DNA from: Prostheceraeus crozeri
Taxonomy: Eukaryota; Platyhelminthes; Polycladida; Euryleptidae
Length of the DNA: 64,000 nt
Reading direction: 5' to 3'
Assembly (NCBI GenBank): GCA_907163375.1
Contig: CAJQUW010011247.1
Location: 1-64,000 of the forward strand
In this document: positions 39,063 to 55,496 of the stretch, one piece after another
Position numbering within the stretch: the stretch's first letter is position 1
How the letters are laid out: every line of letters begins with the position of its first letter
Made by a program: the position numbers and the translations under genes
Notes under the pieces: generated by a model
Seen by the model: the letters and a program-made list of their open reading frames with translations, nothing else
Database searches by the model: none
Told to the model about the DNA's origin: nothing

Positions 39063-39175
39063 GTTGTCTTTGAAATGCTGACTTTGAATAATGATAACTT
39101 TAACATTTTTCTAATTCTTAAGTATACACAAGCAGCCAATCAGAATGAACATCCAATGAATGAAGAGGATGAAAG

Positions 39176-39183
39176 TATATAAG
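39176..39183 (+). promoter_or_regulatory. TATA box of PolB (TATATAAG)
   Basis: It lies about 135 bp upstream of the PolB start codon, consistent with a 5' exon of roughly 110 nt ending in ATG and a GTAAGT donor. Confidence 0.7.
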
Positions 39184-39318
39184 CAAAGTGACATTCAGGT
39201 CATTTCATTTAATCTGTGAATCATACAAGTGACGAACGCACGATCTCTCTCTTTGACTATTATTTGAGTGAAGTCTCTATCTTGTAGAAGTATCAACCTT
39301 AAACTTGATTTCGTTGAA

Positions 39319-42300
39319 ATGGTAAGTTGAAAATTTCCTCTCATCTCCCTCAAACGTGTGACTAATAGCATCTTCCTCAATTTCAGGCAACAACTTCATC
39401 ACCAACGCCCTCTCTTCTCGAGGAAAGTTTAGAGTTATTGAGTCAAGGTAGGTTGTAACACTACACTGAGGCTTGAACAGAGATGAAAGAATGATTTCTC
39501 TTTCAGGTGATGTGAGTTCCAGCTCAGGACTCTCGCGGCAAGGCAACGAGTGGGAATGTGCCGACTGCGGACATATGTTTACAAGGAAGCACAGTCTCCT
39601 TCGACACATCAAACAACGTGTGTGTCAACGCAAAGCGGTGTCAATCTCCGGAGGTGAAGTTGATTCTGACGATGACATCTCCTTTCCTTGCGATTTGTGC
39701 CCTCTTTCTTTTGATAGTCACTTTCAGCGATCTTCGCACAGACTTCAACACACGCATGCAAATGATCACTACACCAACGGTACCTCTACCATCTCCCTCA
39801 TTAATGTTTCACATAATAATTTAGTACGCGACTACTGCATGGAGTCCAATACTCAAATTGTAGATTTTCCTGAGTGGCTCCTTCAAAATTCTAACATTAT
39901 CGAAGCGCTCTTCAATAATTTAGACAATTTTAGAATGAAGGCGCTCATCTACCTTAAACTAAAATATATTAAAATAGATTTTCAAACGGGTCAAGTGACG
40001 GAGAGAATACAGTTTCATATTCCTTCCTCTTCCGCAACCGAAGTTGTAGACTGCGAGTCTTGGCTAAATTTTCACATTCAATGTTTAAAATCAAATGTAG
40101 ATAAATTCAATCAACGCGACAGCGCTCTCATTTTTGATGGTGTGGACTCAGCCATATTCAAAATTTCCCTATTAGAAAGTCATGCAGCTCGAGGCACATT
40201 TAAACTTCCAAAAACGTTGTATAATAAGAAAGCTGTCATCAATGTTGATTGTAAATCACAGTGTTTCAAATATGCAGTCCTATCCATCCTTCACTATAAT
40301 GATATCAACGCGCATCGAGATCGCACCTATAGCTATAGACAGTGGGAGGATGAACTAGACTTTGAAGGTTGTGATAGTAACAACATGAAAATCAAAGATG
40401 TAGAAACGTTCGAAAAACATAATAAGATTAAAATTGTCGTTCACGTGTGGGAGAAGGGGTTGAAGGGTGCCCGCTATAATTCACGTTCAACTTGTTATGA
40501 ACGTGTAGTCAACCTCTTATTAGTAAAACAAGATGATAGCGAGGAATGGCACTACTGTGGTATTCCCAAAATCTCTCGCTTGTACACTCACTTGGGGCAC
40601 TCTAAAAGAGGTGAACATTTTGTATGCGACCGCTGCATCCGCTCATTTTGGAGTAAAGATAAATTTGAAACTCACTATGAATGGTGCAAGCGAGGTAAAT
40701 TACAAATGGAACGCATGCCCAAAGATAAAATATTTTCACATAGGGATAATGGTGACGAATTAAGTCCCCTGCGTGTCATTTACGCAGACATAGAATGCTA
40801 CATTGATGATATCATCCACAAGCCAGCAGCCATATCCTGCTATGAAGTATGGCATGACCACTTTAGGAATAGACAAAACAAAATGCATACTTGGCAAGGT
40901 GAAGATTGCATTTCAAAATTTCTAGAATTTCTCGATAAAGCTGCAAAATTTCAACAATCATATGATTCCCAATTGCAGCGTAAGTCACTACATATGTCAG
41001 ATGAAGACAAACAAAAATTTGAAAGTTGCACATCCTGTCCTAAATGTCATAAAACGTTTGATGACGATAAAATTAAGAAAGTGCGTGATCATGATCACAT
41101 CACTGGTAAATTTAGAAACGCACTCTGCTCCAAATGTAACTTTTCACTTAGGTTGAGACGTCGTGTACTACCCGTCATTTTTCATAACTTTAAGGGCTAT
41201 GACAGTCATATGCTCATAAAAGGAGGGTTGAGCCAGATGAAATCGTGGCAGTTTAATGTAATAGCACAAACGAGAGAAAAATTCATGGCAATGACAGCAA
41301 AAGTACCAGTAGATAAAACTAAAGAAAATAAGACAGTCTTCTTCGAAATAAAATTTTTAGATTCATTTCAATTCATGTCAGCGTCACTAGCTTCTCTCGT
41401 TCGTAATCTCAAGTTTCTTCCCCATAGTCAAACTTTGAAGAAACACTATCCAAACTTAACGGATGAAATAATCACTCGCAAAGGAGTCTTTCCTTATGCG
41501 TATTTTAGCTCAATGTCTAAACTAAATGAAACAACCCTTCCTTCCATTGACAAATTCAAAAACGATTTGACGGGTGAAGATTGTCCAGTAGAGGACTATG
41601 AACATGCTCAAGAGGCATGGTTAAAATTTAATTGTAAAACGTTTGGCGATTATATGATCGCTTACTTAGAATTAGATGTCATTTTGCTGGCTGATGTCTT
41701 TCAGGAGTTTCGACGAGTGGCATTAGAAGAAGACAAATTAGATCCTATCCACTTTGTCAGTCTACCAGCCATGTCCTTTAAATCAGCCTTTAAAATGACT
41801 GGTGAGACCATTCATCTCTTACAAGACCCGGAGATGTATAATATATTTGAGCGCGGAATACGCGGTGGTCTCACATTTGTAAATAAACATCATATAAAAT
41901 CTGAAACAGTAGGTGATGATCATATCCACCTAAAGTACTATGACCAAAATAATTTATATGGCAGTTCACTGTCTAAACCACTACCTCATTCCGAGTTTAG
42001 TTGGTTAAATCAAAATGAGCTTGAGTATTACTCCAACCCTTCAAACATACTGAATATTCCAGATGAAGGTGATTGGGGATATTATTTTGAAGTGGATTTG
42101 ATTTATCCAAATAGTATTAAAAATAAAACTGCTGATTTCCCACTCGCACCTGAATCTGGCGAAGTGACTGAAGATATGTTTTCACCATTCATGTCACAAT
42201 TTCATAATAACTTAACAGAGTGTGGACAGCCAAGGTACAAACCATGCCGCAAACTTTTACTCACCCAATATGATAAGAAAAATTATCTCGTACACTTCTG

Positions 42301-43291
42301 CATATTAAAATTCTATTTAGAAATGGGCATGCTTCTAAAGTCAGTTCACCGCATTATCAAATTTAGACAGAAAGCCTTCCTCAAACCCTACATAGATAGT
42401 AACAGTCAAAAACGTGCACTCGCCCAAAATAATTTTGAAAAGGATTTTTATAAATATAAGAATAATAGTCTATTCGGAAAGACCATGGAGGATGTTAGAA
42501 AACGTATGAATTACAAACTAGTCGTTGATGAACAAAAATATCACAAATTGACCTCATCACCTCTTTTCATTGATAGAGACATCATCGATGAGGATCTTGT
42601 AGGTGTTAAAATGATTAAATCAGAAGTTGAGTTGTGCAAACCCATCTATATTGGGCAAGCCGTTTTAGATTATTCCAAGCTTGAAATGTATCAACTCTTC
42701 TACAAAATATTAAAACCATGCCCTCTCGTAAAAGAGGTTCGCTTGCTGGGTGGTGATACAGATAGTTTCTTTTTAGGAATTACCACTCAAAAAGATTTAA
42801 ATTTTAATGAAGTAGGTAAGTCATTAGAAAAATATTTCGATACATCTAACTACAATCCCACTCATCCACTCTATTCCATACAGAATAAAGCCAAACTTGG
42901 TTGTTTTAAGGATGAAACAGCAGGAAAGGAAATAGATGAAATGATTCTCCTCCGTCCTAAAATGTATTCCATGAAACTAAAAGAATGTGCAGATAGTATT
43001 AAGCGTGCTAAAGGTATATCAAAATCCATTGTTCATAAAATGAAACATCGGTCCTATAAGAAGGCCTATAAAAATAAAACTATAACGTTTGTCAATATGA
43101 CAATCTTAAAATCTCAAGTTCATACTGTGAAAACGTACACGTTCAAGAAACGAGCACTTTCAGCATGGGAGGATAAGAGGTGTTGGATAGGACATAACAC
43201 ATCTCTTCCACATGGACATCCTGACACAAACATACCTCCACCCAAAAGAATAAAACTCACGCTACCACATTCAGGAGATGTATTGACATAA
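39319..43291 (+). CDS. PolB: Protein-primed DNA polymerase B, spliced (about 1282 aa)
   Basis: It replicates the element. Three exons fit: 39319..39321 (ATG only, then GTAAGT), 39387..39447 and 39507..43291, with introns of 65 and 59 nt and intact frame. Domains: two C2H2 zinc fingers (about 39555..39765); a Polinton-specific N-terminal region; a CFKYAVLSIL block; exonuclease motifs I (ADIECY, about 40785), II (HNFKGYD, about 41180) and III (YLELDV, about 41665); and, between I and II, an endonuclease-VII-like RDHDHITG...LCSKCN. Polymerase motifs are DQNNLYG (about 41942), NNSLFGKTMED (about 42461) and GGDTDS (about 42751). A poly(A) signal AATAAA lies at 43450..43455. All key residues are present. 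Confidence 0.93.
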
Positions 43292-43441
43292 TCAACTTTA
43301 ACTCAGTATTTTGATGTTGCTTTTTGTAGATATACATGGTTGTTTTATGTATCGTATGAGATCGTTTCTTCCTTGTGAATATATACCTACAGTCAGCCCA
43401 TTCCCCCTATATCTGTGAAAAGACTTTTTCATATACATATT

Positions 43442-43455
43442 TTTATTTCAATAAA
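43442..43455. terminator. Overlapping convergent poly(A) signals
   Basis: AATAAA on the plus strand (43450..43455) serves PolB. TTTATT at 43442..43447 is AATAAA on the minus strand for the converging 506-aa gene. Confidence 0.6.
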
Positions 43456-43470
43456 CATATCACAATGACT

Positions 43471-44991
43471 TCACTTTGTTTTCCGAAACACTAAAGTTAC
43501 GAGGGATTTAGTATCTTTCACATGGATACACTCTTGTAAACCATTGGTAATTTTGATAGCAATAGAGGGTATAGTTTGTTTGACGACGGGATGATAGAAA
43601 ATAGATTCAAACATCTTCTCGACTATTCCATATGAAGCGTCTTTATCATGAATGAAATCACGTAAAATGTATTCTTTTTTCTCGCCAACAGAAATAGGTA
43701 AAATCAAATCACTTTGAATGTAAAGGTGTTGTTCATGTTTATCAAGTGTCATTGGTGTTTCTATACCAATCGTATGCGCAGCAGCAAACACAGTTTGTAG
43801 CATTGAAAAGCCAAAGAGTTTTTTCAAATTTTTACTCAATTGACATTGAATGTCATCACCCAGTTTCAGAACAACGCGTTGTTTTTCAATTGAAAACGAA
43901 ATGTGGTGTGTCTTTACATCATATTTACTTTTCATCACATGCTTCAACTTCTGTTGTATATAAGGATTTACTACATGAATGAAGCTTTCAACTGTATGAT
44001 ATAGACGCGGCATTATATTGATAGCAACTTTAGATTCTTCATAAGACTGGTAAATTTTCTTGATGCGATCGCCATAGATGTCCACCCACCATTCATCATT
44101 AACTGAATCAGCTTTAGTGTGATATTCATGAGAACCATACACCACACCGCTTCCAATAATAGGCGTATAATGTCTTACAAAATGACGCAAGGTTGGAGAG
44201 AAATAAACTGTAAGTTTGTCATTATATTTCTGAATAACCAACTTATTTTTGTCCGCCATAATTTTCTCTCCATACTTCTTACCCACAGTCTCATTCCATC
44301 GTTTTACTAACTCAATAAGTGATAAAGGTTGAACACCACGCTTTTTCAAAATGATGCGTTCTTCGCATTCTACAACATCTTCATCAAATATTTTAAATCT
44401 ATAATGAAATTTGTTGATTCGAGTTGAATAAACTTTTTTAACATTTGCAGTAGCAATTGACGTTAGATGTAGTCCATGACCAAAACCAAGATGTGGATAG
44501 AATTCACTATCCAACCTCAGCGTAAGACCTTTAGTAAAAGAATGAAAGCGGAGGAACTGTCTCCCACTCCAATGATAGATAGTAAACTCATAAGCTTTCT
44601 GATTTTTATTCTTCATGATGGAAGTATTACCACTGTTGAATGCCTTAATAATTTTCTCATTCCCAAATGGCTCATAAGAATCTGATTTTATCTGAATCCA
44701 TTCATAGTTCCACTTTCCATCTGATGTTAAATTGTATGGGAACTGAAATGCATTATTCATCGTTATTCCATCATGGGTGCGAGGAGTCAATATCATTTCT
44801 TCCAAATCATTCACATTCTGAATATTGCTATCATAGCAAATACTAGAAACGCCAACTTCCCATTCACCTTCTAAATGCAGTGGCCGATTTAATTCTACTC
44901 GATAGTCTGATGGTTTATTTTTGGGAAATTTATTCATAGAAGCATTACTGGGCAAGTAGATTAGAAACGAGTCCTTATTTTCACTTTCCAT
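43471..44991 (-). CDS. Polinton virion-type protein, WEVGV family (506 aa)
   Basis: It is a paralogue of the next gene (45031..46428). Shared features: a start of the type F-x-I-x-L-x-S-N-A, the block GEWEVGVSSICY near residue 45, a middle MPRLYHTVESFIHVVN, and HISFSIEKQRV...LKKLFGF late in the protein. Proteins with an L-x-G-x-W-E-V-G N-terminus are common in animal Polintons; a capsid-associated or spike role is assumed rather than known. The ATG at 44991 is chosen by alignment with the paralogue and by distance from the ATGCAAA motif. An in-frame ATG at 45021 would add ten residues. Confidence 0.7.
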   Translation of the reverse strand: MESENKDSFLIYLPSNASMNKFPKNKPSDYRVELNRPLHLEGEWEVGVSSICYDSNIQNVNDLEEMILTPRTHDGITMNNAFQFPYNLTSDGKWNYEWIQIKSDSYEPFGNEKIIKAFNSGNTSIMKNKNQKAYEFTIYHWSGRQFLRFHSFTKGLTLRLDSEFYPHLGFGHGLHLTSIATANVKKVYSTRINKFHYRFKIFDEDVVECEERIILKKRGVQPLSLIELVKRWNETVGKKYGEKIMADKNKLVIQKYNDKLTVYFSPTLRHFVRHYTPIIGSGVVYGSHEYHTKADSVNDEWWVDIYGDRIKKIYQSYEESKVAINIMPRLYHTVESFIHVVNPYIQQKLKHVMKSKYDVKTHHISFSIEKQRVVLKLGDDIQCQLSKNLKKLFGFSMLQTVFAAAHTIGIETPMTLDKHEQHLYIQSDLILPISVGEKKEYILRDFIHDKDASYGIVEKMFESIFYHPVVKQTIPSIAIKITNGLQECIHVKDTKSLVTLVFRKTK

Positions 44992-45024
44992 ATTATTCAC
45001 ATTGGAAAAATATATTAGCATACT

Positions 45025-45031
45025 TTTGCAT
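45025..45031 (-). promoter_or_regulatory. ATGCAAA late-promoter candidate
   Basis: ATGCAAA on the minus strand, 33 bp before the chosen start of the 506-aa gene. Confidence 0.45.
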
Positions 45032-46428
45032 TAACTCTTCATTCGGAAATGGAGTGTAATACTTGTCACAGCATCTTTATGAAAAGGAATCAACGCACCA
45101 GCATCATCATAAATGGCAATATCAATTTGTGGGATGTAGTTTGATTTCAGCTTTGTATAATGCACTTTCTTGAAAGTATGCTCAGATAAAATACTGCAGC
45201 TTTTTGGCTGGTATGGTATCATTGCTAGCAATGGAGCTTCAACATCTCCCACACGTACATCTTCACCAATATTGGAATATATCTGAAAATAGTTAATACG
45301 ACGCGATAGCGACATGTCTGCGCTAGCTTTGGTTACAGTACCACTTTTAAAGATATTTTGATCAAAACCCAAAATGTCCATTAGAGTTTTATCCATAATT
45401 AGTTCAATACCTTTTCCATTTATAGTGAGAGACAAAGTACCTTCTTTTTCAGAAAATGAAATATGTTGCTCATTAATCACTTCATTTAAATAATCTACAA
45501 CCAATTTAACCGAAGTAATAATGCGAGGCATCAACACTCTTGTTTCATGTAAGAAACCACCAAAAGGCTCTACACACTTTCTGTATAAAGATACGGCCCA
45601 TTCTGTATCAAATTGATTTGACCTTTCACATGGTAAATGTTGCATATCAGATTTTCCATGAACAGCTGCAGAACGATGTCGTAAGAACTGATGAAAATCT
45701 TTTGAACAAACTAATACTAGATCATCATCATTTAATTTACTTATTGCAATATGATTAGATGATTTAATATAAGTCAATGTTGCCACTTGTTTGTCATCAA
45801 CTCGAAGGAGATAATTAAATTTCTTCAATAATGTTTCAGGAGTCATGTTTGTCTTTCTTGGCTTAATCACAATCTTCTTCACCAACGTCTTCTCATTTCT
45901 TGGAATAAGATCTACATAATAAGCTTCCTCTCGATATATTAACTGTTTATGACCACTTATGTGGTAATTAACGTTAAAATTATCATAGCTTGTTAAGGCG
46001 CTAGCGAGGTAGCCTAAATCATTTCTTAAACTTGGACTTAAACCAACAATCCAATCTTTCTCAACTACATGATGTACATAATTATAATCATCATTGTGCG
46101 GAGTAAATTGGACAATATGTTTACACGCTTTATTCAAGAAATCATATATAAACTTTTTACATGATAAGAGATCTTTCTTTGGCCACTGTGGAATGTATAT
46201 TCGGCACCCCTTTTCACATTGATAAGCAGCTGTACGCCTCATATTAATAGTCATCACCTCATGATCAAAAGTATAGACACAGTTGCTATAAACAAGTTGA
46301 GTGACACCCACTTCCCAATTCCCATTTAGCTGTTGTGCATGATCAATGGGAGTAGAAAAGAGTGCGGCTCGATTGCTAGTAAATCTCTTTGTAGCCGCAT
46401 TGCTAAGCAAAATATGATAAAACGACAT
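45031..46428 (-). CDS. Polinton virion-type protein, WEVGV family (465 aa)
   Basis: The true ATG is at 46428 (MSFYHILLSNAA); the frame is open further upstream but without ATG. It has GNWEVGVTQLVY near residue 45, MPRIITSVKLVVDYLN, and HISFSEKEGTLSL...LMDILGFD, collinear with the 506-aa paralogue. The two lie end to end on the same strand with only 39 bp between them. No enzymatic motif is visible. Two unequal copies would suit two related structural proteins, for example a spike or an accessory capsid component. This is inference from family distribution. Confidence 0.7.
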   Translation of the reverse strand: MSFYHILLSNAATKRFTSNRAALFSTPIDHAQQLNGNWEVGVTQLVYSNCVYTFDHEVMTINMRRTAAYQCEKGCRIYIPQWPKKDLLSCKKFIYDFLNKACKHIVQFTPHNDDYNYVHHVVEKDWIVGLSPSLRNDLGYLASALTSYDNFNVNYHISGHKQLIYREEAYYVDLIPRNEKTLVKKIVIKPRKTNMTPETLLKKFNYLLRVDDKQVATLTYIKSSNHIAISKLNDDDLVLVCSKDFHQFLRHRSAAVHGKSDMQHLPCERSNQFDTEWAVSLYRKCVEPFGGFLHETRVLMPRIITSVKLVVDYLNEVINEQHISFSEKEGTLSLTINGKGIELIMDKTLMDILGFDQNIFKSGTVTKASADMSLSRRINYFQIYSNIGEDVRVGDVEAPLLAMIPYQPKSCSILSEHTFKKVHYTKLKSNYIPQIDIAIYDDAGALIPFHKDAVTSITLHFRMKS

Positions 46429-46450
46429 TTTTATATTGCTAATCTGCAAC

Positions 46451-46457
46451 TTTGCAT
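46451..46457 (-). promoter_or_regulatory. ATGCAAA late-promoter candidate
   Basis: ATGCAAA lies 22 bp before the minus-strand ATG at 46428. It sits in the 35-bp gap between two divergent genes, so it could serve both. Confidence 0.5.
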
Positions 46458-46463
46458 AACATC

Positions 46464-46820
46464 ATGAAGACTTGGATTTTGGACTCTCTACAATATATCA
46501 GAGTTGATCGTGATGGAAACGTACATTTCAAAAATTCTCATGGTCATACATCAAGAGGAATTACATTAACATGGCGACAATTTGTCAACCTCAATGATAT
46601 CATGAGGGATTTGGAATATTTTGAAACATTAAGATTCATCTCCTTGGGTGATCAAGTTTGGCTTCAACATTACAGAAATGAAATTCAAATCTACCATTCT
46701 CATTCCGCAAACTGTTTCTCATTTCGCAAATACAATTGGGAGAAGTATAGAAGATACATACATCGCTCCATCATGACATTTATTCGTCGTGAGTTCATCG
46801 CCCTACTATGCAAATCTTAA
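46464..46820 (+). CDS. PC4-like protein, first of two paralogues (118 aa)
   Basis: The ATG at 46464 (MKTWILDSL). The protein reads as two similar halves: strands, then a G-I-T-L-T-W/W-E-K-Y-type strand entering a helix. These are VHFKNSHG...RGITLTWRQFVNLNDIM and IQIYHS...FSFRKYNWEKYRRYIHRSI. Beta hairpins leading into GI-L---QW--L is the signature of the single-strand-binding PC4/SUB1 coactivator domain. The resemblance is by pattern only. It is divergent from the capsid-type genes and precedes a longer paralogue and the TBP-like gene on the same strand. Confidence 0.6.
   Translation: MKTWILDSLQYIRVDRDGNVHFKNSHGHTSRGITLTWRQFVNLNDIMRDLEYFETLRFISLGDQVWLQHYRNEIQIYHSHSANCFSFRKYNWEKYRRYIHRSIMTFIRREFIALLCKS
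46808..46815 (+). promoter_or_regulatory. ATGCAAAT late-promoter candidate
   Basis: It lies 27 bp upstream of the ATG at 46843 and overlaps the end of the 118-aa gene. It is the plus-strand instance of the motif found before several minus-strand genes. Confidence 0.5.
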
Positions 46821-46842
46821 TCAGATATGATTACCACGCACC

Positions 46843-47493
46843 ATGAGTTGGAAATTAGATTCCCTACAACGTATTGAAACGGATCATGATCGAAACGTCT
46901 ATTTCAAAGATTCAACTGGAAATGTGAGAAGAGAGTTTGTTTTATCTTATCGTCATTTTCAATCTCTACATCATATCATGAAGGACTTGAAATACTTCTA
47001 TATGAAAAGACATTCACGTATTGGAAATCGCATCTGGCTGCGCGTCAACAATCGGCGAATTCAACTCTATCATTCCCAACTTCATACTAACTTCACATTT
47101 CATCAAGGTAGTTGGGAAAAGTATAAAAGGAAGGTACATCGCTCAATTTACTCATTCTTTCATCATGAAGCGCCATCGCTACACCATCGTCAACATTCTC
47201 CGTCGCTTCAGACTCTACACCAAAATCGATCTCACAACATTACGCCAACAGCTTCCAAACAGCAAGTATTACCCGGGCCGTCCTCAAATGTTAGTAGTGA
47301 AGATGAACAATTCACGGAATCTTCAACTCTTCCCAAATGGGACTGTACAGATTCTCGGCGCCCTTTCTCATTCATCGGCGCAGTCAATGCGCTTAGAGCT
47401 ACAAAGACTACTACGTCGGATATGGAAGAGGGAGAGGTGTGTGATGTCGAATCTGACTGTGGACAATATGGTGATCTCTACTCAATTGAGTGA
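46843..47493 (+). CDS. PC4-like protein with long acidic tail (216 aa)
   Basis: Residues 1-108 are a paralogue of the 118-aa protein (LDSLQRIETDHDRNVYFKDS, SLHHIMKDLKYF, WEKYKRKVHRSI). Beyond residue 108 the frame continues through a His/Ser-rich and then acidic segment (SSEDEQF, DMEEGEVCDVESD) that overlaps the first 329 nt of the TBP-like gene in another frame. The tail may be a real overprinted extension or simply an open frame. The domain resembles PC4, so nucleic-acid binding is the likely activity, inferred from pattern. Confidence 0.6.
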   Translation: MSWKLDSLQRIETDHDRNVYFKDSTGNVRREFVLSYRHFQSLHHIMKDLKYFYMKRHSRIGNRIWLRVNNRRIQLYHSQLHTNFTFHQGSWEKYKRKVHRSIYSFFHHEAPSLHHRQHSPSLQTLHQNRSHNITPTASKQQVLPGPSSNVSSEDEQFTESSTLPKWDCTDSRRPFSFIGAVNALRATKTTTSDMEEGEVCDVESDCGQYGDLYSIE

Positions 47494-47710
47494 CAGTCTA
47501 TCATTTTTGAAGATTCGTACCAGCAGTTACAGTTTGTGTTATGAACCCGAACTTTTTCCTGCAGCTCTCATTAGTTGTTGGTTGCCTGTGCATGTGGCAA
47601 TCTTTCATAATAGTAAAGTGATCATTACTGGACTAAAATCTCATGAACAAGCAAATATGATCCTAGACTATCTCATTGAGTATGTACGTACCCAGCGGAT
47701 TGTAAAATAA
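47165..47710 (+). CDS. TATA-binding-protein-like transcription factor (181 aa)
   Basis: The ATG at 47165 gives a protein the size of the TBP core, with two TBP-type repeats (about residues 8-88 and 97-175). Repeat 1 has IVNILRRFRLYTKIDLTTL, then YYPGRP and LQLFPNGTVQILGALS, corresponding to the cellular pattern NIV...LDLKTI, EYNPKRF and LIFSSGKMVCTGAKS. Repeat 2 has VDNMV, YEPELFPAALI and VAIFHNSKVIITGLKS. Three of the four DNA-kinking phenylalanines seem kept (F56, F131, F147); the fourth is proline (P40). A poly(A) signal AATAAA overlaps the stop codon. It probably redirects transcription to the element's own promoters. Confidence 0.85.
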   Translation: MKRHRYTIVNILRRFRLYTKIDLTTLRQQLPNSKYYPGRPQMLVVKMNNSRNLQLFPNGTVQILGALSHSSAQSMRLELQRLLRRIWKRERCVMSNLTVDNMVISTQLSDSLSFLKIRTSSYSLCYEPELFPAALISCWLPVHVAIFHNSKVIITGLKSHEQANMILDYLIEYVRTQRIVK

Positions 47711-47741
47711 AAAACAATTTTTCCAACATGATGTTTTTATT
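47706..47741. terminator. Convergent poly(A) signals overlapping two stop codons
   Basis: AATAAA (47706..47711) overlaps the TAA of the TBP-like gene. On the minus strand AATAAA (47741..47736) overlaps the TAA of the protease gene. Confidence 0.6.
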
Positions 47742-48198
47742 TCAAATCATGATAGAACTTACAAATCATTTTTTCATTAGAGGATGGATTACATGAAAAG
47801 TTTTGAATAATAGATGCAAATCGAGATACATGTAAACGTTTTAAGATGAAGTACAGTACAAAAGCACCACACGTTGATGAAAGTGGATGTTGTAGTATGC
47901 GTTCATTTCGCTGATATTGACGCGTATGTTTTCTCAACCACTGCTGTGTTGGTATATTTGGAGGTTGAGCAAGAGAGTCAAATAGTTCACCACGTCGGTC
48001 TTTTCCAATAAAGATCGCTTTCCAATGCTCACCGCCTAAATTCTGTGAATGAGTGTTTAGCACAATAAAGATGGGATAGTGATTTACTGCAGGTGGTAAG
48101 GTATCGAGTGAATAGACATTATCGAAAGCTTTCAACGTCGCTTCGTCTGCATTATGCTGCACTTTAGTCTTAATATCGTCAGCAGTCAACCAACTCAT
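47737..48198 (-). CDS. PRO: Adenain-like cysteine protease (153 aa)
   Basis: It is the maturation protease of the Polinton/adenovirus C5-like type, expected to cut virion precursor proteins. The catalytic set is visible: H58 in GGEHWKAIF, acidic E71 or D74 in GELFDSLA, and C110 in SSTCGAFVLYF, in the usual His-acid-Cys order. The length fits the short Polinton forms. Its ATG overlaps the stop codon of the capsid gene (TAATG), suggesting translation coupled to it from one mRNA. Candidate substrates are the QRGG/QKGG proteins encoded by both elements. Confidence 0.9.
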   Translation of the reverse strand: MSWLTADDIKTKVQHNADEATLKAFDNVYSLDTLPPAVNHYPIFIVLNTHSQNLGGEHWKAIFIGKDRRGELFDSLAQPPNIPTQQWLRKHTRQYQRNERILQHPLSSTCGAFVLYFILKRLHVSRFASIIQNFSCNPSSNEKMICKFYHDLK

Positions 48199-49475
48199 TA
48201 ACGATTATACTGAAGAATCACGTCACGATACTTTGTAATTTCAATATTTGAATCGAAGACTGCATAAATTAATACATTGATCGTCTCAGGTAGTGTTCTT
48301 TTGAACGTCAAATCCAAACGAATATTATGAGGCACGTTCGCTTGACGATAGGGTGCACTAATATCGCTGTCAGCAGTCAAATCAAATGCATAAATAGTAT
48401 ATCCACTCTTAAACTCTTTCATAGTCAGTCCGTTGGTATCATCCGTATTGTAAAAGCCAAAGACATCCATAAAATCAACATAACTGCGCATAAATTGATC
48501 CGAAGCAAAATCTGGTTTGTAGGGTGGACCAGGATGACTCACACCATTAACACGTAAAGCAATTTCACTTAACTGATTGTGTTTAAAATTGAAAGGATTC
48601 TTCTTTATATTACCATTAAATGCATCATTTTCAACCATTGCCACCATGAGGAGCTTCGGTGCTTCCGATGGAAAGAGGCCATCTTTCATGAAACTCTTTT
48701 GATCTTTCGGAATTGTAAAGGTGAGAAGCTTTGTATGCTGAACGGGGTAAATGGCATTTTGGCGGTTAAGACCTTCAGCATGCCCTCTAATGACACTTGG
48801 ATTCGGTACTACTCGACGAATGTAAAGTGCAATATCTTCCACATGAATTCTAAAATTGTCAACTTTAGCAAATGCATTCAGCGCAAATTCAGGCTTATTC
48901 AATGTCAGCTTGAGTCGCATGCTGGTATTACAGAGTAAAAACTTTGACTGTCTAAAGAAGTCTAAATTCAGCGGACCATATAGCTGACATACTCTACTAT
49001 CTTTAATCATAGCAGATCGCTTTACAAAGCCACTGTTTGTTTCAACATCAAATTTTCCTGCTTCATCTCTGTACCATCCCATGGCTTCCATATGACTTTT
49101 TTGTGCTGCTGGATGAAACTGTGATACATGATTGAAATATGATTTATAGGGATAATCGCTTTGACCACCTTCCACCTGCTGCTCTCCAATCGTTAGAGAA
49201 ACATCGCGAAGTAATGTAGTCAATGGTAAATTGTTCAGTCCAACTTTATGTGCATCGTCAATAGCAGTTCCATCTGCTTGTTGAATTCTAAACCTCAAAT
49301 CAAGCATCGCATAACTCAAATCTATGTAGTCATCACTACCACCAGGAATAACAAATTCAATGGGGCCAGCATTCTCAGCTGTTCGAGGATGATAATCTAC
49401 AATACTTGAACTAAGAATATCTGTCTGCATGGCTTGTTGATCGAACAAACAAAAACCGGAAGTTTTACACTCCAT
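48198..49475 (-). CDS. MCP: Major capsid protein, double jelly-roll type (425 aa)
   Basis: It belongs to the F54H12.2-like family of animal Polintons, regarded as the hexon-like major capsid protein. Visible family marks: PIEFVIPGGSDDYIDLS near the N-terminus, DVSLTIGEQQVEGG, YPYKSYFNHV, and the end R-LPETINVLIYAVFDSNIEI. The size is slightly shorter than usual double-jelly-roll capsids. It sits 2 bp after the 151-aa core-protein gene and overlaps the protease start by one base, making a tight core-capsid-protease block. The assignment as capsid rests on the family, since the fold cannot be computed here. Confidence 0.85.
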   Translation of the reverse strand: MECKTSGFCLFDQQAMQTDILSSSIVDYHPRTAENAGPIEFVIPGGSDDYIDLSYAMLDLRFRIQQADGTAIDDAHKVGLNNLPLTTLLRDVSLTIGEQQVEGGQSDYPYKSYFNHVSQFHPAAQKSHMEAMGWYRDEAGKFDVETNSGFVKRSAMIKDSRVCQLYGPLNLDFFRQSKFLLCNTSMRLKLTLNKPEFALNAFAKVDNFRIHVEDIALYIRRVVPNPSVIRGHAEGLNRQNAIYPVQHTKLLTFTIPKDQKSFMKDGLFPSEAPKLLMVAMVENDAFNGNIKKNPFNFKHNQLSEIALRVNGVSHPGPPYKPDFASDQFMRSYVDFMDVFGFYNTDDTNGLTMKEFKSGYTIYAFDLTADSDISAPYRQANVPHNIRLDLTFKRTLPETINVLIYAVFDSNIEITKYRDVILQYNR

Positions 49476-49477
49476 GA

Positions 49478-49933
49478 TTAGAAGTTATAGCAGCGTCGTC
49501 GTTTAGCGCCTGATGAATGATTAGAGCCTCTGCGACGTTTGCGTGAATGCCTTTTGACTGAAGATTGCACCTTACCAGCTCCGCGATGTTTCCTCCTTCC
49601 TTTTCTCATTCGTTTAGGTGATTTCTTTCCTTGAGTAACACCAGCAATGGTCTGCTTCAATGTTTTTAAACCGCGTTCCTTCCCACGATTCAACAAACTG
49701 CTCTTAAAACTTCTACCTCTGGAAAGATCACTAGCAACATCACCAGCAAAGCCAACGGCATTACTTAAAACATTTCGTTTTAAAGATCTACCGACATTGG
49801 ATATGAGAGGTGCTACAACAGATTTCAGTGCACCAAGTATGCTACCTCCACGTTGGCGGCGAGCACCGATGTAAATTTGTCCTCCACCACTTACGTAGGA
49901 GGGTCGTGAATAAAATGAGGCAGTTGGATTCAT
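49478..49933 (-). CDS. Basic virion core protein with amphipathic segment (151 aa)
   Basis: The N-terminus is Gly-rich (YVSGGGQIYIGARRQRGG, ending at residue 30), followed by a hydrophobic/amphipathic stretch (SILGALKSVVAPLISNVG). A long Lys/Arg-rich tail includes RMRKGRRKHRG and SRKRRRG. This layout recalls the minor core proteins of adenoviruses and adintoviruses, which bind DNA or disturb membranes after protease cleavage. The GG at 29-30 is a candidate cleavage point. An ATGCAAA motif lies upstream at 49965..49971, and the capsid gene follows after 2 bp. Confidence 0.75.
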   Translation of the reverse strand: MNPTASFYSRPSYVSGGGQIYIGARRQRGGSILGALKSVVAPLISNVGRSLKRNVLSNAVGFAGDVASDLSRGRSFKSSLLNRGKERGLKTLKQTIAGVTQGKKSPKRMRKGRRKHRGAGKVQSSVKRHSRKRRRGSNHSSGAKRRRCYNF

Positions 49934-49964
49934 AGCTCAAACCCTAAACATTGTTAGTTACAAC

Positions 49965-49971
49965 TTTGCAT
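49965..49971 (-). promoter_or_regulatory. ATGCAAA late-promoter candidate
   Basis: It lies 31 bp before the ATG of the 151-aa core protein, at the head of the core-capsid-protease block. Confidence 0.5.
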
Positions 49972-49974
49972 GAA

Positions 49975-51195
49975 TCACTGTCGATCACTTAGATGAAAGA
50001 TGTCGGCACGACGCATCCAAGAGTTCATACTTGAAGGATAACCAGTCCATTTAACAAGACACCATTCTTCACCTTGCCGTTTTTTACATCGAATGATTTT
50101 CTCTACCAAATATGTTTCACTTTCAGTGACTACCTCAATCTCATCGCGGTAAAAGCTACCCTCAATTTCTTCATTATCGTAATCTTTCAACTTGTAGGTG
50201 GTCGGAGAGTCTTTTTGATTAATCCTTGATACTGTAAATACCTCCTCTGTCCAATTCGGGAGGTACCCTTTAGCAAAAACACTTTTCACTTTTGAGATAC
50301 GAACTTTATCGCCAATTTTCACATCACTTTTCACATGAGTGCGTTTACGTTGGAATGATTCGCGCACTTTATCTACATTGTCAGCATTTACATCTACTGG
50401 TCTGAGTCCAATAGAACGATGGATAGAGTGATTGTAGGCATGGAGTGTATCTTGTAGAACCTTTGTCCAATTTTGTGTCAAGTTGGCAGTAAAATGTCGC
50501 CACAAACGATTTTTTAATGTGCGATTAAAACGTTCAACGAGTGCAGCTTTATAAGCGCTCTTTACACTAAACAACTCAATGTCATGCCTCTCAAATAATC
50601 TTGTCACATGCTGATTTTCAAACTCTTTTCCTTGATCACTCTGAATTCTTTTTGGAATGCGACCTTCTCGAAAAATTGTTTGGAATGCTTTTGCTACTCC
50701 TTTCCCTTCTTTAGTTTTTAAAGGTTGAGCCCACGCATAACGCGAGAAAATATCAATGACGGTTAAAATAAAATTATTGCCCGAGTTATGTTTTGAAATG
50801 GAGGCAACATCGCACAAATCTGCTTGCCACTGTTCATCGATGTCATGAACAATATAATGGCGGGTGCGGTACTTCTTTTTCGCTTGTTTGTGGAGTGTAT
50901 AGGTAGCCTGACCCTTTAACCATCGTTTCACTTGTGATTGTGGAAGACCACTCGCTTTTGATAATTTCTTGATAGATGCAAATCCTGCCGGATGTTTTAC
51001 ATCATAATAGATTGACTTCAAACGTTCAGTCGATGACGGCTGACTCTTTTTCCTCCTTCTCATCTTTTTGTTTTCTTCCCTTTCTACATTTACAACAACT
51101 GCAGCATTTAGCTTTAGCGGTTTTGCGATCGTGTTCACATTGCTTAGGGGTTTCATTATGAGAGCTGGCGCAGCAAGTGCAAGTGACAACGACAT
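49975..51195 (-). CDS. INT: Retroviral-type integrase with chromodomain (406 aa)
   Basis: It inserts the element into host DNA and makes the 6-bp duplication. After a basic N-terminus and a helix-turn-helix-like LPQSQVKRWL region comes the DDE core: D126 in EQWQADLCD, D187 in RIQSDQGKEF and E221 in AALVERFNRT. The C-terminal part has an SH3-like segment and then a chromodomain (YLVEKIIRCKKRQGEEWCLVKW...GYPSSMNSW) that may guide integration to marked chromatin. The first in-frame ATG is used; M45 (MRRRKKSQPSS) is an alternative that would shorten the overlap with the Cys-rich frame. Confidence 0.92.
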   Translation of the reverse strand: MSLSLALAAPALIMKPLSNVNTIAKPLKLNAAVVVNVEREENKKMRRRKKSQPSSTERLKSIYYDVKHPAGFASIKKLSKASGLPQSQVKRWLKGQATYTLHKQAKKKYRTRHYIVHDIDEQWQADLCDVASISKHNSGNNFILTVIDIFSRYAWAQPLKTKEGKGVAKAFQTIFREGRIPKRIQSDQGKEFENQHVTRLFERHDIELFSVKSAYKAALVERFNRTLKNRLWRHFTANLTQNWTKVLQDTLHAYNHSIHRSIGLRPVDVNADNVDKVRESFQRKRTHVKSDVKIGDKVRISKVKSVFAKGYLPNWTEEVFTVSRINQKDSPTTYKLKDYDNEEIEGSFYRDEIEVVTESETYLVEKIIRCKKRQGEEWCLVKWTGYPSSMNSWMRRADIFHLSDRQ

Positions 51196-51241
51196 TCACC
51201 TCTGGCGGCTCATTACATGGCAAGCAACACATCTGCTTCAT
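51026..51241 (-). CDS. Cys-rich small protein overlapping integrase (71 aa)
   Basis: The frame has twelve cysteines in clusters (CCLPC, CTCC, CCSCCKC) followed by a lysine/glutamate-rich tail, the look of a small metal-binding protein. Its ATG lies one base after the stop codon of the 230-aa gene (TAA-T-ATG), the same tight spacing seen elsewhere in this element. It overlaps the integrase N-terminus in another frame for most of its length. It may be a true overprinted gene or an integrase leader artefact; codon bias cannot be judged by eye. Confidence 0.4.
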   Translation of the reverse strand: MKQMCCLPCNEPPEVNVVVTCTCCASSHNETPKQCEHDRKTAKAKCCSCCKCRKGRKQKDEKEEKESAVID

Positions 51242-51242
51242 A

Positions 51243-51935
51243 TTAATAGTCTGAGAACATGTATTTCCTGGGAGGAGCTGTTTTACGTTTTCCTTTTACC
51301 AGTTTTAGTGGCGATACAGATCTACGTCGAGTTCTTCCCCTTGTTTGCTTAGTGAGTGTGGGAGGGGATGTAGCAGGTGACGTCTTAAACCAATTTGTTG
51401 GCATTTTCATCGCCTGAAGCATTGGAGTAGTAGCCACTGTTGAATCAAGTTCTTTCAATGTCTCATTATTTAAAGCAAATTTTGGCACATTATGCTTTTT
51501 CAATAGTTTAAGAAAGTATGACCAACCAGGTGGAACATAGCCCTGACGGCGCTTTCTACGTGTCGCATACTGAATCAAGTCTTCATAACGTGAAGCATCA
51601 ATCACTTTATTTTCATCTGTAATGATTTCTCCTCTATCATTTACATTGAGATGGGGTTCAATACTGTTGAAAAGAGATATGGCATGTGCGCGAGATGCTA
51701 AAGGTGTAGCAGTCGATACAGAGTCACGCATCTTATTCTTCAAGTTTTTCAATTGCTCAACAGTTTCCGATTGTAATAATACAGCACGATGTGGATCTTT
51801 GATGTGAACATTTTGCTGATAATCTATTTCTTTCCTATACATTTGATTTGCAAGAGGTTGCTTTACTTGCTGCATGGCAGTCAATTGTACATATTCATCC
51901 TGAGGAATAACAATCATGCGAGAATAAGAACTCAT
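51243..51935 (-). CDS. Polinton conserved protein of unknown function (230 aa)
   Basis: The start MSSYSRMIVIPQDEYVQLT is of a type seen next to the integrase and ATPase in animal Polintons. The middle is helical and charged (HRAVLLQSETVEQLKNLKNKMRD), followed by YATRRKRRQGYVPPGW and a basic C-terminal segment (KQTRGRTRRRS...KGKRKTAPPRK). It starts 13 bp after the ATPase stop codon. A structural role is possible from the position, but no domain is recognised. Confidence 0.65.
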   Translation of the reverse strand: MSSYSRMIVIPQDEYVQLTAMQQVKQPLANQMYRKEIDYQQNVHIKDPHRAVLLQSETVEQLKNLKNKMRDSVSTATPLASRAHAISLFNSIEPHLNVNDRGEIITDENKVIDASRYEDLIQYATRRKRRQGYVPPGWSYFLKLLKKHNVPKFALNNETLKELDSTVATTPMLQAMKMPTNWFKTSPATSPPTLTKQTRGRTRRRSVSPLKLVKGKRKTAPPRKYMFSDY

Positions 51936-51948
51936 AGTTTGTAGATAA

Positions 51949-52548
51949 TCATGGAGTTTTCAAAATATCACTTCGAAATCTAAATTCTTCCGGACACTCT
52001 TGCGTAAAGTCAATGAATAAGTAACCGTATGGTTTTTCAGTAGCTGCTTGAAAAATTTCAATTAAGGCTTTTGATCCTCTGGGTGCAACTTGTCGCGCTA
52101 AAATTTCAAATTGACTTTTATCTCGCGGATTCTTGAAAATAGCATAATAGTGTGTATTCAGGTTTCGTGTACGAGCTTCTTTTCCATCAGGAAACAAATT
52201 TTGTGTAATATAGATGATAAAACACCTTTTATGGTGTGCTGCGCGAGTGAACATATCTGTAACATCTTTTGAATTCTTACTTTCTTTTAATAAATCATCC
52301 AATACAACAACATCATTAGACTGAAGTTTATCCACTGGAATAATTCCTTCATGTCGAATAAAGTTGCGACTTTGCAATTCCTGAAACAGCGACGGTTGAT
52401 AAATACCATAACACCAAATCACTCGATTGATAGGTTCCTTAAACAACTCCCTTCTTTTATCCAATAAATTCAGCGTGAAAACAGTTTTACCTGCATGAGA
52501 TGGACCTGATACAGTCAGAACTTTATCACATTGAAGTCTGAAATCCAT
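51949..52548 (-). CDS. ATPase: FtsK/A32-type genome-packaging ATPase (199 aa)
   Basis: This is the motor that pumps viral DNA into capsids in Polintons and related viruses. Walker A is SGPSHAGKT (residues 14-22), Walker B is DVVVLDDL, and a downstream IIYITQNLFPDGKEARTRNLN segment matches the sensor region of the family. The usual ATG is at 52548 (MDFRLQCDK); the frame is open upstream but without ATG. An ATGCAAA motif lies about 23 bp upstream. Length is normal for this compact family. Confidence 0.9.
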   Translation of the reverse strand: MDFRLQCDKVLTVSGPSHAGKTVFTLNLLDKRRELFKEPINRVIWCYGIYQPSLFQELQSRNFIRHEGIIPVDKLQSNDVVVLDDLLKESKNSKDVTDMFTRAAHHKRCFIIYITQNLFPDGKEARTRNLNTHYYAIFKNPRDKSQFEILARQVAPRGSKALIEIFQAATEKPYGYLFIDFTQECPEEFRFRSDILKTP

Positions 52549-52570
52549 TTTATTACTTTGAGACTCAACA

Positions 52571-52577
52571 TTTGCAT
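52571..52577 (-). promoter_or_regulatory. ATGCAAA late-promoter candidate
   Basis: It lies in the gap between the 118-aa core protein and the ATPase, 22 bp before the ATPase ATG. Confidence 0.5.
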
Positions 52578-52579
52578 AA

Positions 52580-52936
52580 TTAACGCTTAGAGCCAAAGAT
52601 ATTTCCCAATAGGTTGCCCACGGCAGGAGCTATCATTGGAAGTATTGCTGAAAGGAAACCGCCCTTTTGTGTTAGAGTTTTCCTCTTTCTTTGAAGGGCG
52701 ACTTTAGGATTGGAGATGAAACGCAATTTCGTAGCATATCGCTTAAGTAACTTTCGTTGTTTTGGCGCTAATTTCTTCGTCCTCAACTTCCTCACATGAG
52801 AAATAATTTCACAAATGAATTTATCGTTAGCATGTCGTATAGCATTGTATCGCTGATTTGCTTTCATTCGTCGGAGAGCTTGAATGGCTGAAGAAAACTT
52901 TTGACTTTTACGTTTCGTCATTTTACGTTTCGCCAT
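52580..52936 (-). CDS. Basic virion protein with C-terminal hydrophobic helix (118 aa)
   Basis: It opens MAKRKMTKRKS and stays strongly basic through KLRTKKLAPKQRKLLKRYATKL. After KTLTQKGG (GG at 92-93) comes a hydrophobic Gly-rich helix (FLSAILPMIAPAVGNLLG). Such a basic body and membrane-active-like tail separated by Gly-Gly is typical of small Polinton/adintovirus core proteins likened to adenovirus pVI or pX. The comparison is by layout only. Confidence 0.75.
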   Translation of the reverse strand: MAKRKMTKRKSQKFSSAIQALRRMKANQRYNAIRHANDKFICEIISHVRKLRTKKLAPKQRKLLKRYATKLRFISNPKVALQRKRKTLTQKGGFLSAILPMIAPAVGNLLGNIFGSKR

Positions 52937-52975
52937 TTTCCGTGTTAGTCTTTGCTAAAACCTATCTTTACCACA

Positions 52976-52982
52976 TTTGCAT
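52976..52982 (-). promoter_or_regulatory. ATGCAAA late-promoter candidate
   Basis: It lies 39 bp upstream of the 118-aa core protein ATG and just past the end of the RING/TM gene. Confidence 0.5.
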
Positions 52983-52987
52983 AGGTA

Positions 52988-53311
52988 CTAACTATTGCGA
53001 CATAAGTGACACTCGAAATGAGCAATGTCACAGTGGTTACATTGGCAAAGTTGAATGCAATTACGTATGAAACAGCGTTGACAAAAAGCATGCTTACATC
53101 TCTTGAAGATGCGCTTTTCATTTCCATCCTTTCGCTTACATACATCGCAACACATAGTTTCACCGTTACTGATGTCTATAGCAAGTCTTTTTGAAGATAT
53201 GAATTTGCTAGCCTTTTCTAAATAATAGACGCATGTACAGAAGGAATATACTTCGAGAGTGAGCAGACATAGCTCGAAAACCAGTTGTGCTACAATCAAG
53301 TACCACTGCAT
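52988..53311 (-). CDS. Membrane-anchored RING-finger protein (107 aa)
   Basis: The ATG at 53311 (MQWYLIVAQL) starts 2 bp after the stop of the preceding gene. Residues about 4-28 form one hydrophobic membrane segment. The C-terminal half has a RING-type zinc ligand series: CDVC, a 12-residue gap, CKHAFCQRC, then CQCNHC and CHLC. A RING of this kind usually acts as a ubiquitin ligase. A viral E3 directed at host membranes is a reasonable inference, but no substrate can be named. Confidence 0.65.
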   Translation of the reverse strand: MQWYLIVAQLVFELCLLTLEVYSFCTCVYYLEKASKFISSKRLAIDISNGETMCCDVCKRKDGNEKRIFKRCKHAFCQRCFIRNCIQLCQCNHCDIAHFECHLCRNS

Positions 53312-53313
53312 TT

Positions 53314-53724
53314 TCAATTTTTCTTTATGGAAAGTTGAATGTGAATATCTGAAATCGCTTCAATCACTAGACTGCTACCATGATGGTTAAATGCGTTAAG
53401 ACGTTCAGCAATTTTTATCATATGTCTTTTAAAAAATTCTTGGGGGTGATCTACCACTTCCATTGAATAAGAAGCAAAATGGAAAGAGCGACTTTCCACC
53501 TCTTCCTTTCCAAAATGACTAAACTTAATTTTCGCAACTAATCGCGCCATGATAATGCTATCAGAGAATGTATTCATTAACTCTAGAAATAGAGTGCTAG
53601 CATCATCGACCACTGCTTCGATGTCGGTCTCATCTTTATGAAATTTTATCACATAATCTTGAACAGCTCCTTTTAAACTTTGCCTATGAAAACGTAATGT
53701 TCCGCAGTCGTTTGAGAAAGACAT
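53314..53724 (-). CDS. Stand-alone paralogue of part of the PolB N-terminus (136 aa)
   Basis: Its second half aligns with the element's own polymerase between the zinc fingers and the exonuclease domain. IKFSHFGKEEVESRSFHFAS...MEVVD pairs with KIDFQTGQVTERIQFHIPS...TEVVD. FKRHMIKIAERLNAFNHHGS pairs with FHIQCLKSNVDKFNQRDS, and AISDIHIQLSI with VDSAIFKISLL. It has no polymerase, exonuclease or zinc-finger motif. It may bind DNA or the polymerase, or compete with its N-terminal domain. It is followed immediately by the RING/TM gene. Confidence 0.65.
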   Translation of the reverse strand: MSFSNDCGTLRFHRQSLKGAVQDYVIKFHKDETDIEAVVDDASTLFLELMNTFSDSIIMARLVAKIKFSHFGKEEVESRSFHFASYSMEVVDHPQEFFKRHMIKIAERLNAFNHHGSSLVIEAISDIHIQLSIKKN

Positions 53725-53811
53725 GATCGCCCTTTATCTAACCCATCCATTGCATGAAAACAACAACTCTTCTCATAGTAACATTTATTGAATAATGGTA
53801 ACAAGCATGCA

Positions 53812-54342
53812 TTATAAATCAATGGTTTGAAAGAGATAAAATAGATACAGCTGGTAACTATCATACAGCGAGCAATGATAACCATACAGGACTTTGGCAG
53901 TGTTGAGGTAAGGAGGAAAGAAGCATTGGTTATGAACGTAGCTACTACAACGAACAGACAAAATAGGAACACACAAATCCTTAAAACGTTTTGTGACTTC
54001 ATGATAATGTTGATTCACTCTACTATCCCAAGGTGGGAGCAAAATATCATCAATGATTAGATTGGGAAATACTTTCCTCTCCTTACCAGGATTATTACAA
54101 AAGATGCGTATAACATTGAAAGCAGCTAACCATCGTTTAAAGTCAATAAGAAGAGCACTCTCACAAGAAAAGCCATAGTCTTGTAAATATTTCAGATTAA
54201 GTCCATGAATGTGTTTTCTCGCCCATTGATCAACATTGGGATCGCAGTTGGCATGTTGATGATAGACACTAACAATCTGATATGTCCAATTGTTCATAGC
54301 AATAGCACTGAGCTCCTGTACAGGTTCACCCTCACAATCCAT
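53812..54342 (-). CDS. DEDDh exonuclease-like protein (176 aa)
   Basis: The protein opens with MDCEG (D2, E4), the form of exonuclease motif I, preceded in frame by hydrophobic codons (ASIIIF) after a possible splice acceptor TTTCCGTTTTAG. Near the C-terminus YHCSLYDSYQLYL (H156, D161) fits motif III, H-x4-D. The middle D of motif II is not obvious; the NNPGKERKVF segment is a possible counterpart. A role in trimming viral or host nucleic acid is inferred. A missing motif-II acid would make it inactive, so the call is tentative. The true 5' end may be spliced. Confidence 0.5.
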   Translation of the reverse strand: MDCEGEPVQELSAIAMNNWTYQIVSVYHQHANCDPNVDQWARKHIHGLNLKYLQDYGFSCESALLIDFKRWLAAFNVIRIFCNNPGKERKVFPNLIIDDILLPPWDSRVNQHYHEVTKRFKDLCVPILSVRCSSYVHNQCFFPPYLNTAKVLYGYHCSLYDSYQLYLFYLFQTIDL

Positions 54343-54394
54343 AAAAATGATGATAGAAGCCTAAAACGGAAATTTACACATCTAAGGAAACGTT

Positions 54395-54595
54395 CTATAA
54401 CATATTACAAAATGAAGAATTACATCGATGCTTTTCACGACAAAATACACAAATGATATGATGGCAACGAAGAAGTAAAATGTATCTAATAAGACCACGT
54501 CTACGACACTCAAAGCACATAAGCGAATTGTCATAGGGTAGAGTTAGGAAAGGACTAGCAATTCTCCTTCTTTGATTTGCGTTTTGATGTAGCAT
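54395..54595 (-). CDS. Small RING-like zinc-finger protein (66 aa)
   Basis: From the first ATG (54595) it overlaps the 235-aa gene by 41 bp. The zinc ligands are CFEC, 14 residues, CHHIICVFC, then CNSSFC, close to a RING with an x4 last pair. The N-terminal part is short and basic. A later ATG at 54520 would leave only the zinc finger. This and the RING/TM protein are the two candidate ubiquitin-ligase-type genes of the element. Confidence 0.5.
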   Translation of the reverse strand: MLHQNANQRRRIASPFLTLPYDNSLMCFECRRRGLIRYILLLRCHHIICVFCREKHRCNSSFCNML

Positions 54596-55330: not shown

Positions 55331-55428
55331 TTTAGTTGGATAATAGAACAGGGAACTAGAGAGAGAAAATGTGCGTCCGTCACTCGTGTGATTCAACGAT
55401 GGAATGATTCTCACTGTGGAAGGCTCGC

Positions 55429-55436
55429 TATTTATA
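55429..55436 (-). promoter_or_regulatory. TATA box (TATAAATA)
   Basis: It is on the minus strand, about 100 bp before the ATG at 55330, and is the only clear TATA box at the right end of the element. Confidence 0.65.
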
Positions 55437-55496
55437 AAGAAATGCTTGATTCTCATTGGATGATGATCCTCATTGGACAATAACATCAAGTTGATT

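Follow-up and report, generated by a model that had tools for sequence, protein, structure and literature searches.

Introduction

Homologues of the TATA-binding protein (TBP) are in print for mirusviruses and mirusvirus-like elements (PMC10675990, PMC10132985) and for a giant virus, and giant viruses can also carry their own RNA polymerase (PMC11464507), according to the accessible parts of these sources. In KSHV, late genes are driven by a TBP mimic, ORF24. According to its description (PMC12529657), L114 and L205 are changed to Ser, and V122, T124 and V161 to Asn; all four intercalating phenylalanines are kept, large extra domains, among them a C-terminal one, are added, and E188, called critical for TFIIB, is absent. 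TRF2, a TBP paralogue that does not bind TATA, has lost an intercalating phenylalanine, and TBP carrying three changes in its second repeat reads TGTAAA (PMC10005294).

The locus compared here with these systems is a TBP gene carried by a Polinton of the polyclad flatworm Prostheceraeus crozeri. The window is the whole stretch of 64,000 nucleotides that was analysed (contig CAJQUW010011247.1, positions 1 to 64,000), and all coordinates refer to it. The Polinton protein resembles those of giant viruses and mirusviruses in being a TBP of a eukaryotic DNA virus, as they are presented in the accessible part of PMC10132985. Identity to its viral structural matches was at most 20% among the 50 matches listed. 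It resembles the herpesvirus TBP mimics (KSHV ORF24 and its EBV and HCMV counterparts) in polar residues at L114 and V122 and in a changed L205, but unlike ORF24 it is a bare 181-aa core with Gln at V122, Leu at T124, three of the phenylalanines and E188 kept. Judged from the alignment and the accessible account of ORF24, the two proteins apparently became more polar at several shared positions independently of each other. Loss of an intercalating phenylalanine is shared with TRF2, a likeness by description only, and a specificity shift through second-repeat changes would be shared with the TGTAAA-reading proteins, although those are laboratory mutants and not natural proteins (both from the accessible part of PMC10005294).

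No report of a TBP in a Polinton, Maverick or adintovirus was found in the open-access literature searched, which agrees with the earlier note on this DNA, whose author knew of no established account; prior mention in a subscription journal is possible. The accessible parts of PMC10675990, PMC12220804, PMC11071308, PMC11464507, PMC7786948, PMC10132985, PMC10120064, PMC12085832, PMC11640650 and PMC2612703 contained none, and the open-access literature searched yielded no description of ordered gene expression in Polintons.

The reading preferred here, to which a probability of roughly 0.5 is given, is that the Polinton TBP would be made early from TATAAAAGG, bind a site other than TATAAA, and switch on the late genes by recruiting TFIIB and RNA polymerase II of the host.

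The Polinton and its genes

The TBP gene lies in a complete Polinton of 24,047 bp (32134..56180) of the form 5'-AGTAGTAAGC...GCTTACTACT-3'. The element is flanked by the target-site duplication AGTGTT (32128..32133 and 56181..56186, both read on the + strand). Its terminal inverted repeats pair in pieces, 88–100% complementary, and occupy about 32134..32904 (+) and about 55591..56180 (−). AG..CT ends and a 6-bp duplication are features of Polintons. The Polinton setting given in the earlier note was confirmed, the inverted repeats and the duplication enclosing the TBP gene. A contaminant or an insertion of host DNA was rejected as its source: the gene is inside the inverted repeats and has the same neighbours in eight copies and in most of the stretches compared.

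Directly upstream of the TBP gene lie two paralogous ORFs, both without a family match, of 122 aa (46452..46820, +) and 216 aa (46843..47493, +). The first 113 aa or so of the larger are paralogous to the smaller (44% identity over 112 aa), and the rest overlaps the TBP gene in another frame. The predicted structure of the 122-aa product had a pLDDT of 47.7, too low to use.

Convergent with the TBP gene is an adenain/Ulp1-like protease gene (47737..48198, −; PF02902, E=6.6e-4, 20.0 bits against a cut-off of 20.7). When three relatives of the protease were scanned, P0203 and P0230 scored above a protease cut-off and P0241 below it. The adjoining ORF (48198..49475, −), presumably the major capsid protein, had no Pfam match and no PDB match using an alignment of 13 sequences. 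A basic protein is encoded on the same strand directly before the putative capsid protein and the protease (49478..49933, −). Beyond it are a retroviral-type integrase with a chromodomain (49975..51195, −; rve 1.3e-10, Chromo 6.4e-7), a weakly matched packaging-ATPase-like protein (51949..52596, −; Pox_A32 0.021, below cut-off; phrog ATPase 0.0057) and a weakly matched pX-like basic protein (52580..52936, −; Adeno_PX 0.0024, below cut-off).

The 1272-aa ORF at 39473..43291 (+) is, we assume from motifs picked out by eye, a protein-primed DNA polymerase B. Searches of Pfam, PHROGs and NCBIfam matched it to no PolB profile, and a single-sequence PDB search returned zinc-finger matches only. Its sole profile matches were Endonuclease_7 and an N-terminal C2H2 finger. 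WEVGV protein 1 (43471..45021, −) had no family match and WEVGV protein 2 (45031..46449, −) no significant one.

Possible short introns (GTAAGT...TTTCAG) occur at 39313–39472 and 55170–55329, just 5' of the listed starts of the polymerase-like ORF and of a 204-aa ORF. These intron-like letters, read by eye, raise the possibility of splicing in early genes. Another Polinton-like end, oppositely oriented, runs from 5596–11554 on to the contig start, where it is cut by the contig end. Pieces of it are 78–100% complementary to stretches of 33036–38574, and its adjoining genes are different (ORFs 4166–4747 and 4880–5479, which are alike each other).

Identification of the TBP gene

The gene proposed as a TBP homologue in the earlier note was found at 47165..47710 (+) as an ORF of 181 aa from ATG to stop, corresponding to the two-repeat TBP core without an N-terminal extension. 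A profile search had been named beforehand as a test that could refute the assignment, and it came out for TBP: PF00352 matched the product in two stretches, as expected of the two repeats claimed (E=7.6e-21, 74.2 bits against a cut-off of 22.9). In a PDB sequence search 35 of the 37 returns were TBPs, all at E<=3.9e-8; the other two, at E>1, were TonB. Matches to ten TBP models of NCBIfam (E 1.7e-19 to 9.5e-7) all fell under the curated cut-offs of these models, which are apparently set for particular archaeal groups. These matches confirm the ORF as a TBP homologue, with homology far beyond chance.

By structure prediction the product folds as a TBP saddle, the other feature to be looked for, and Foldseek with the predicted structure returned 44 chains at E<=0.001, all of them TBP or TBP fusions.

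Copies in the genome

Among 11,886 first-look candidates in the genome, the 150 matches to the TBP that were scored were all 100% identical in protein. An exact 27-mer from the TBP promoter (47115–47141) occurred 4,052 times in 2.05 Gb and one from the capsid gene (49149–49175) 5,054 times, and control patterns gave 0 occurrences. The promoter 27-mer undercounts copies, because it was present in 30 of 38 copies compared. An exact 29-mer of the terminus occurred 1,785 times. Among the first 100 terminus sites listed, 36 adjacent pairs were face-to-face, 34 of them at 20–30 kb (median 23.9 kb). The k-mer counts and the facing pairs therefore indicate thousands of Polinton copies, many of them full-length. 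Thousands of copies in one genome make the promoters open to study by host RNA sequencing.

Over the 3.5 kb that could be aligned, the 38 best-matching copies were 96.5–99.8% identical to the window, suggesting that the Polinton multiplied in a burst not long ago. Twenty capsid-bearing stretches were chosen by eye from the first 100 listed, all without the exact promoter 27-mer. By tblastn 18 of them encode the TBP, 14 as a single 181-residue match and 4 in pieces or shorter; in the other two (L058 and L072), which match the window on the capsid side only, none was found by tblastn.

Two of the twenty stretches, L059 and L061, are 86.1 and 84.9% identical to the element and represent older relatives with apparently broken TBP genes, an indication that this lineage had already spread through the genome in a previous wave. 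The Polinton share of the genome would be near 5% if most copies are full length. COX1 was located at G000:C6227:15936-17282 on a contig of 100.7 kb, long for an animal mitochondrial genome; the contig may come from another organism, be misassembled or hold a nuclear copy. A COX1 frame in the assembly is open under mitochondrial codes 5 and 9 but not under the vertebrate code 2, which makes an invertebrate host likely.

DNA-contact surface

Residues were counted in the family alignment to yeast TBP, in yeast numbering and among rows with a letter. The yeast contact positions used agree with the published table in PMC12529657. In comparison with cellular and archaeal TBPs six positions are replaced: F99 is Pro in 57/58 rows, L114 is Gln in 57/61, V122 is Gln in 61/61, T124 is Leu in 55/61, V203 is His in 61/61 and L205 is Ala in 45/61. 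Computation thus shows the predicted DNA surface to be changed family-wide. Kept are N69 (49/49), F116 (61/61), N159 (61/61), V161 (61/61), F190 (60/61), F207 (61/61) and T215 (60/61). In the C-terminal stirrup the TFIIB-contact glutamates are also kept, E188 in 61/61 rows and E186, which we take to be such a contact, in 60/61.

The earlier count of three out of the four intercalating phenylalanines usual in TBP was upheld in the yeast alignment: F56, F131 and F147 of the product are kept, and the fourth position, equivalent to F99, is Pro (P40). Loss of this residue could weaken DNA bending.

The contact residues bear on the rival reading that the Polinton TBP binds ordinary TATA boxes, its own included, and merely strengthens or extends early transcription or acts as a competitor of host TBP, with ATGCAAA read by another factor. 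The seven kept residues listed above would suit such binding, and the TBP gene's own promoter has TATAAAAGG, but family members differ at the six contact positions given above, with V122 to Gln and V203 to His without exception in 61 rows. This reading is judged unlikely. On the preferred reading, of a TBP with altered specificity, the rewired surface would therefore probably bind a sequence other than TATAAA.

Promoter motifs

The TATAAAAGG box lies 43 nt before the TBP ATG (47122..47130, +), and the 216-aa ORF holds it. All 9 of its bases are kept in two copies about 14% diverged. The overlapping ORF reads Tyr-Lys at the box, so that protein constraint could add to its conservation. Ten N-extended relatives of the TBP, whose predicted proteins begin 17 or more codons ahead of the Met, were inspected. 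Eight showed an x-Ile-Lys read-through at codon −14/−15, the reading expected from a TATAAA near −43; it was absent in P0023 and P0048.

Among 19 ORFs examined, only the TBP gene had TATA[AT]A within 80 nt of its start, and the early promoter class rests on this one gene. An earlier proposal that the early genes use TATATAA found no support: TATATAA occurs 297 nt before the listed polymerase start and is at core-promoter distance for no gene, unless introns are assumed. Neither TATAAA nor TATATAA was denser inside the element than outside.

ATGCAAA was the most frequent 7-mer in the 60-nt stretches that precede these 19 ORFs; the 126-aa ORF at 37674–38054 and ORFs overlapping larger ones were left out of the count. 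With the listed starts it stands before 5 ORFs (0.21 expected, Poisson 3.1e-6), at 8, 10, 35, 38 and 46 nt. With refined starts it stands before 6 (Poisson 1.1e-7), at 29, 29, 35, 38, 40 and 46 nt, a distance similar to the 43 nt of the TBP gene's own TATA box. The refined starts are internal Met codons of WEVGV protein 1, WEVGV protein 2 and the ATPase, and were chosen once the motif had been noticed. A seventh ORF (53314–53724) has ATGCAAT at 31 nt. Over the whole window the motif was not enriched (18 observed, 17.98 expected), and its non-randomness lies in position.

The six sites were compared with two old copies, which share changes and hence are not independent. The motif is kept in both before WEVGV protein 2 (46451..46457, −), before the basic protein, capsid and protease run (49965..49971, −), before an internal ATG of the ATPase ORF (52571..52577, −; refined start, inside the listed ORF) and before the pX-like gene (52976..52982, −). 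Before WEVGV protein 1 (45025..45031, −) it is kept in one copy and at 4/7 bases in the other, and before the 216-aa ORF (46808..46814, +) both copies have ACGCAAA. In all, 9 of 12 copy-by-site checks were intact (5/6 and 4/6). With gaps scored as changes, 79 of 84 core bases were kept, compared with 158 of 192 in the flanks. The single comparable non-promoter ATGCAAA kept 5/7 bases in each copy. The second, late-gene motif of the earlier note thus stood as a motif, by its position and its conservation in two older copies; its late use is a step of the mechanism proposed below. The capsid and protease genes have no ATGCAAA of their own, and co-transcription is assumed for the gene runs behind the sites (basic protein, capsid and protease; ATPase onward; pX-like; both WEVGV genes).

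ATGCAAA might instead be a host POU-factor octamer site (ATGCAAAT), with the role of the TBP unrelated, for example in recruiting RNA polymerase III or in bending the ends for replication or packaging. ATGCAAA is presumably the octamer core, and three of the six promoter sites read ATGCAAAT. The other three, however, read ATGCAAAA or ATGCAAAG, and the motif lies as far from the refined start codons as a core promoter element would, which makes a POU-factor site rather improbable.

The same positioned motif weighs against a further alternative, that the protein is a host-shutoff factor which ties up TFIIB or other partners of TBP, does not bind promoters productively and so deprives those of the host. 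Retention of the TFIIB-contact residues would fit such a factor, as would loss of one intercalating phenylalanine in 57/58 rows; a pure decoy, however, would not need the minor-groove Asn pair and the three phenylalanines that are kept. Host shutoff is considered quite improbable.

Proposed mechanism

In the late-gene switch that we prefer, the TBP paralogue, which belongs to the Polinton, would be made early, from a canonical TATAAAAGG promoter readable by host TBP. Its product would combine the predicted TBP saddle and, by alignment, kept TFIIB-contact residues with a rewired DNA-contact surface. The most likely target would be the (T)ATGCAAA element at the TATA position before the virion genes. 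On this element host TFIIB and RNA polymerase II would be seated and the late genes switched on. ATGCAAA may be regarded as a TATA box altered at positions 2 and 3 (TGCAAA for TATAAA). The altered half would be the one facing the C-terminal repeat, the repeat in which V203 and L205 have been exchanged; this assignment of the half-site is our assumption. The changes in the TGTAAA-reading mutants reportedly include V203 and L205.

If this is true, Polintons would owe a virus-like temporal programme to a TBP of their own and a promoter element matched to it, and the case for their being viruses rather than transposons would gain support. It would also offer a minimal model of late-promoter switching through TBP replacement, and a natural TBP of altered specificity.

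Relatives, phylogeny and selection

A search of 5.8 billion metagenomic proteins gave 60 relatives of the TBP, 34–81% identical in local alignment and 31–78% across the whole alignment. PF00352 matched all 61 family members. Ten of them were 18–25% identical to yeast TBP, whereas yeast TBP was 37–78% identical to two archaeal and one microsporidian TBPs.

A tree was built from 30 hand-chosen members of the 61, four cellular TBPs and nine viral TBPs from IMG/VR, known only as loci. The viral rows came from 12 loci, from which 11 TBPs were translated (L048 gave no clean frame) and nine used, L046 and L047 being near-copies. The 30 Polinton-family proteins fell on one side of a branch with 100/100 support, a separate long-branched clade with a stem of 2.1 changes per column, and the nine viral TBPs were excluded from it at 100/100. 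Long branches were flagged in the tree, and the nearest relative of the clade is for that reason not nameable.

Against the older copies L059 and L061, dN/dS of the TBP gene was 0.21 and 0.26. The values were 0.17 and 0.20 for the protease, 0.19 and 0.23 for the capsid gene, and 0.25 and 0.25 for part of WEVGV protein 2. The TBP gene of each of these copies matched by tblastn as two pieces in different frames and is apparently broken; the ratios therefore average over a period of selection and a later neutral one, and the true constraint is if anything stronger. Raw non-synonymous to synonymous counts in the older copies (142 to 126) were dropped, as shared changes were counted repeatedly. Among the 38 best-matching copies the TBP gene varied at 60/546 sites, similar to the 443/3542 overall, and because of this the claim of selection is limited to the older copies. 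Long-term constraint on the TBP is in this sense shown by computation.

That the gene is a functionless chance product or a recently captured fragment of host TBP is highly improbable, being refuted as far as sequence allows by the single clade of 30 sampled relatives (100/100, stem 2.1), by the dN/dS of 0.21–0.26 and by the existence of 60 relatives.

The preferred late-gene switch can be extended into a wider proposal, held tentatively and at a little under even odds: an ancient, monophyletic Polinton TBP lineage would have its own core promoter, TATGCAAA as against TATAAA, and recruit host TFIIB and RNA polymerase II, making a two-class early/late system within an element of about 24 kb. 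Such a system would be convergent with the herpesvirus late system, as a one-protein switch that keeps TFIIB.

Linkage of the TBP relatives to Polintons was approached through contig sizes. The longest contigs of the 60 TBP relatives and of 60 protease relatives shared four sizes (5702, 1649, 2052 and 1771), where 0.61 were expected under jitter of up to 10% (P=0.004; same-source P=0.0014). At 1771 an 81% TBP goes with a 41% protease, perhaps by chance. A single TBP/capsid coincidence (7106) had no control and was not counted. The shared sizes are indirect evidence that TBP relatives may adjoin a Polinton protease. Viral contigs searched with the TBP and with the capsid protein gave no confirmed relatives. 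Prokaryote genome contigs gave none with the TBP and, with the capsid protein, one weak match (30%, on a 3.6-kb MAG contig), which was not used. Two other relatives, P0063 of the capsid protein and P0240 of the protease, carry the NCBI name of a Pseudomonadota MAG (AAGK05); their source is perhaps eukaryotic DNA binned in a bacterial MAG.
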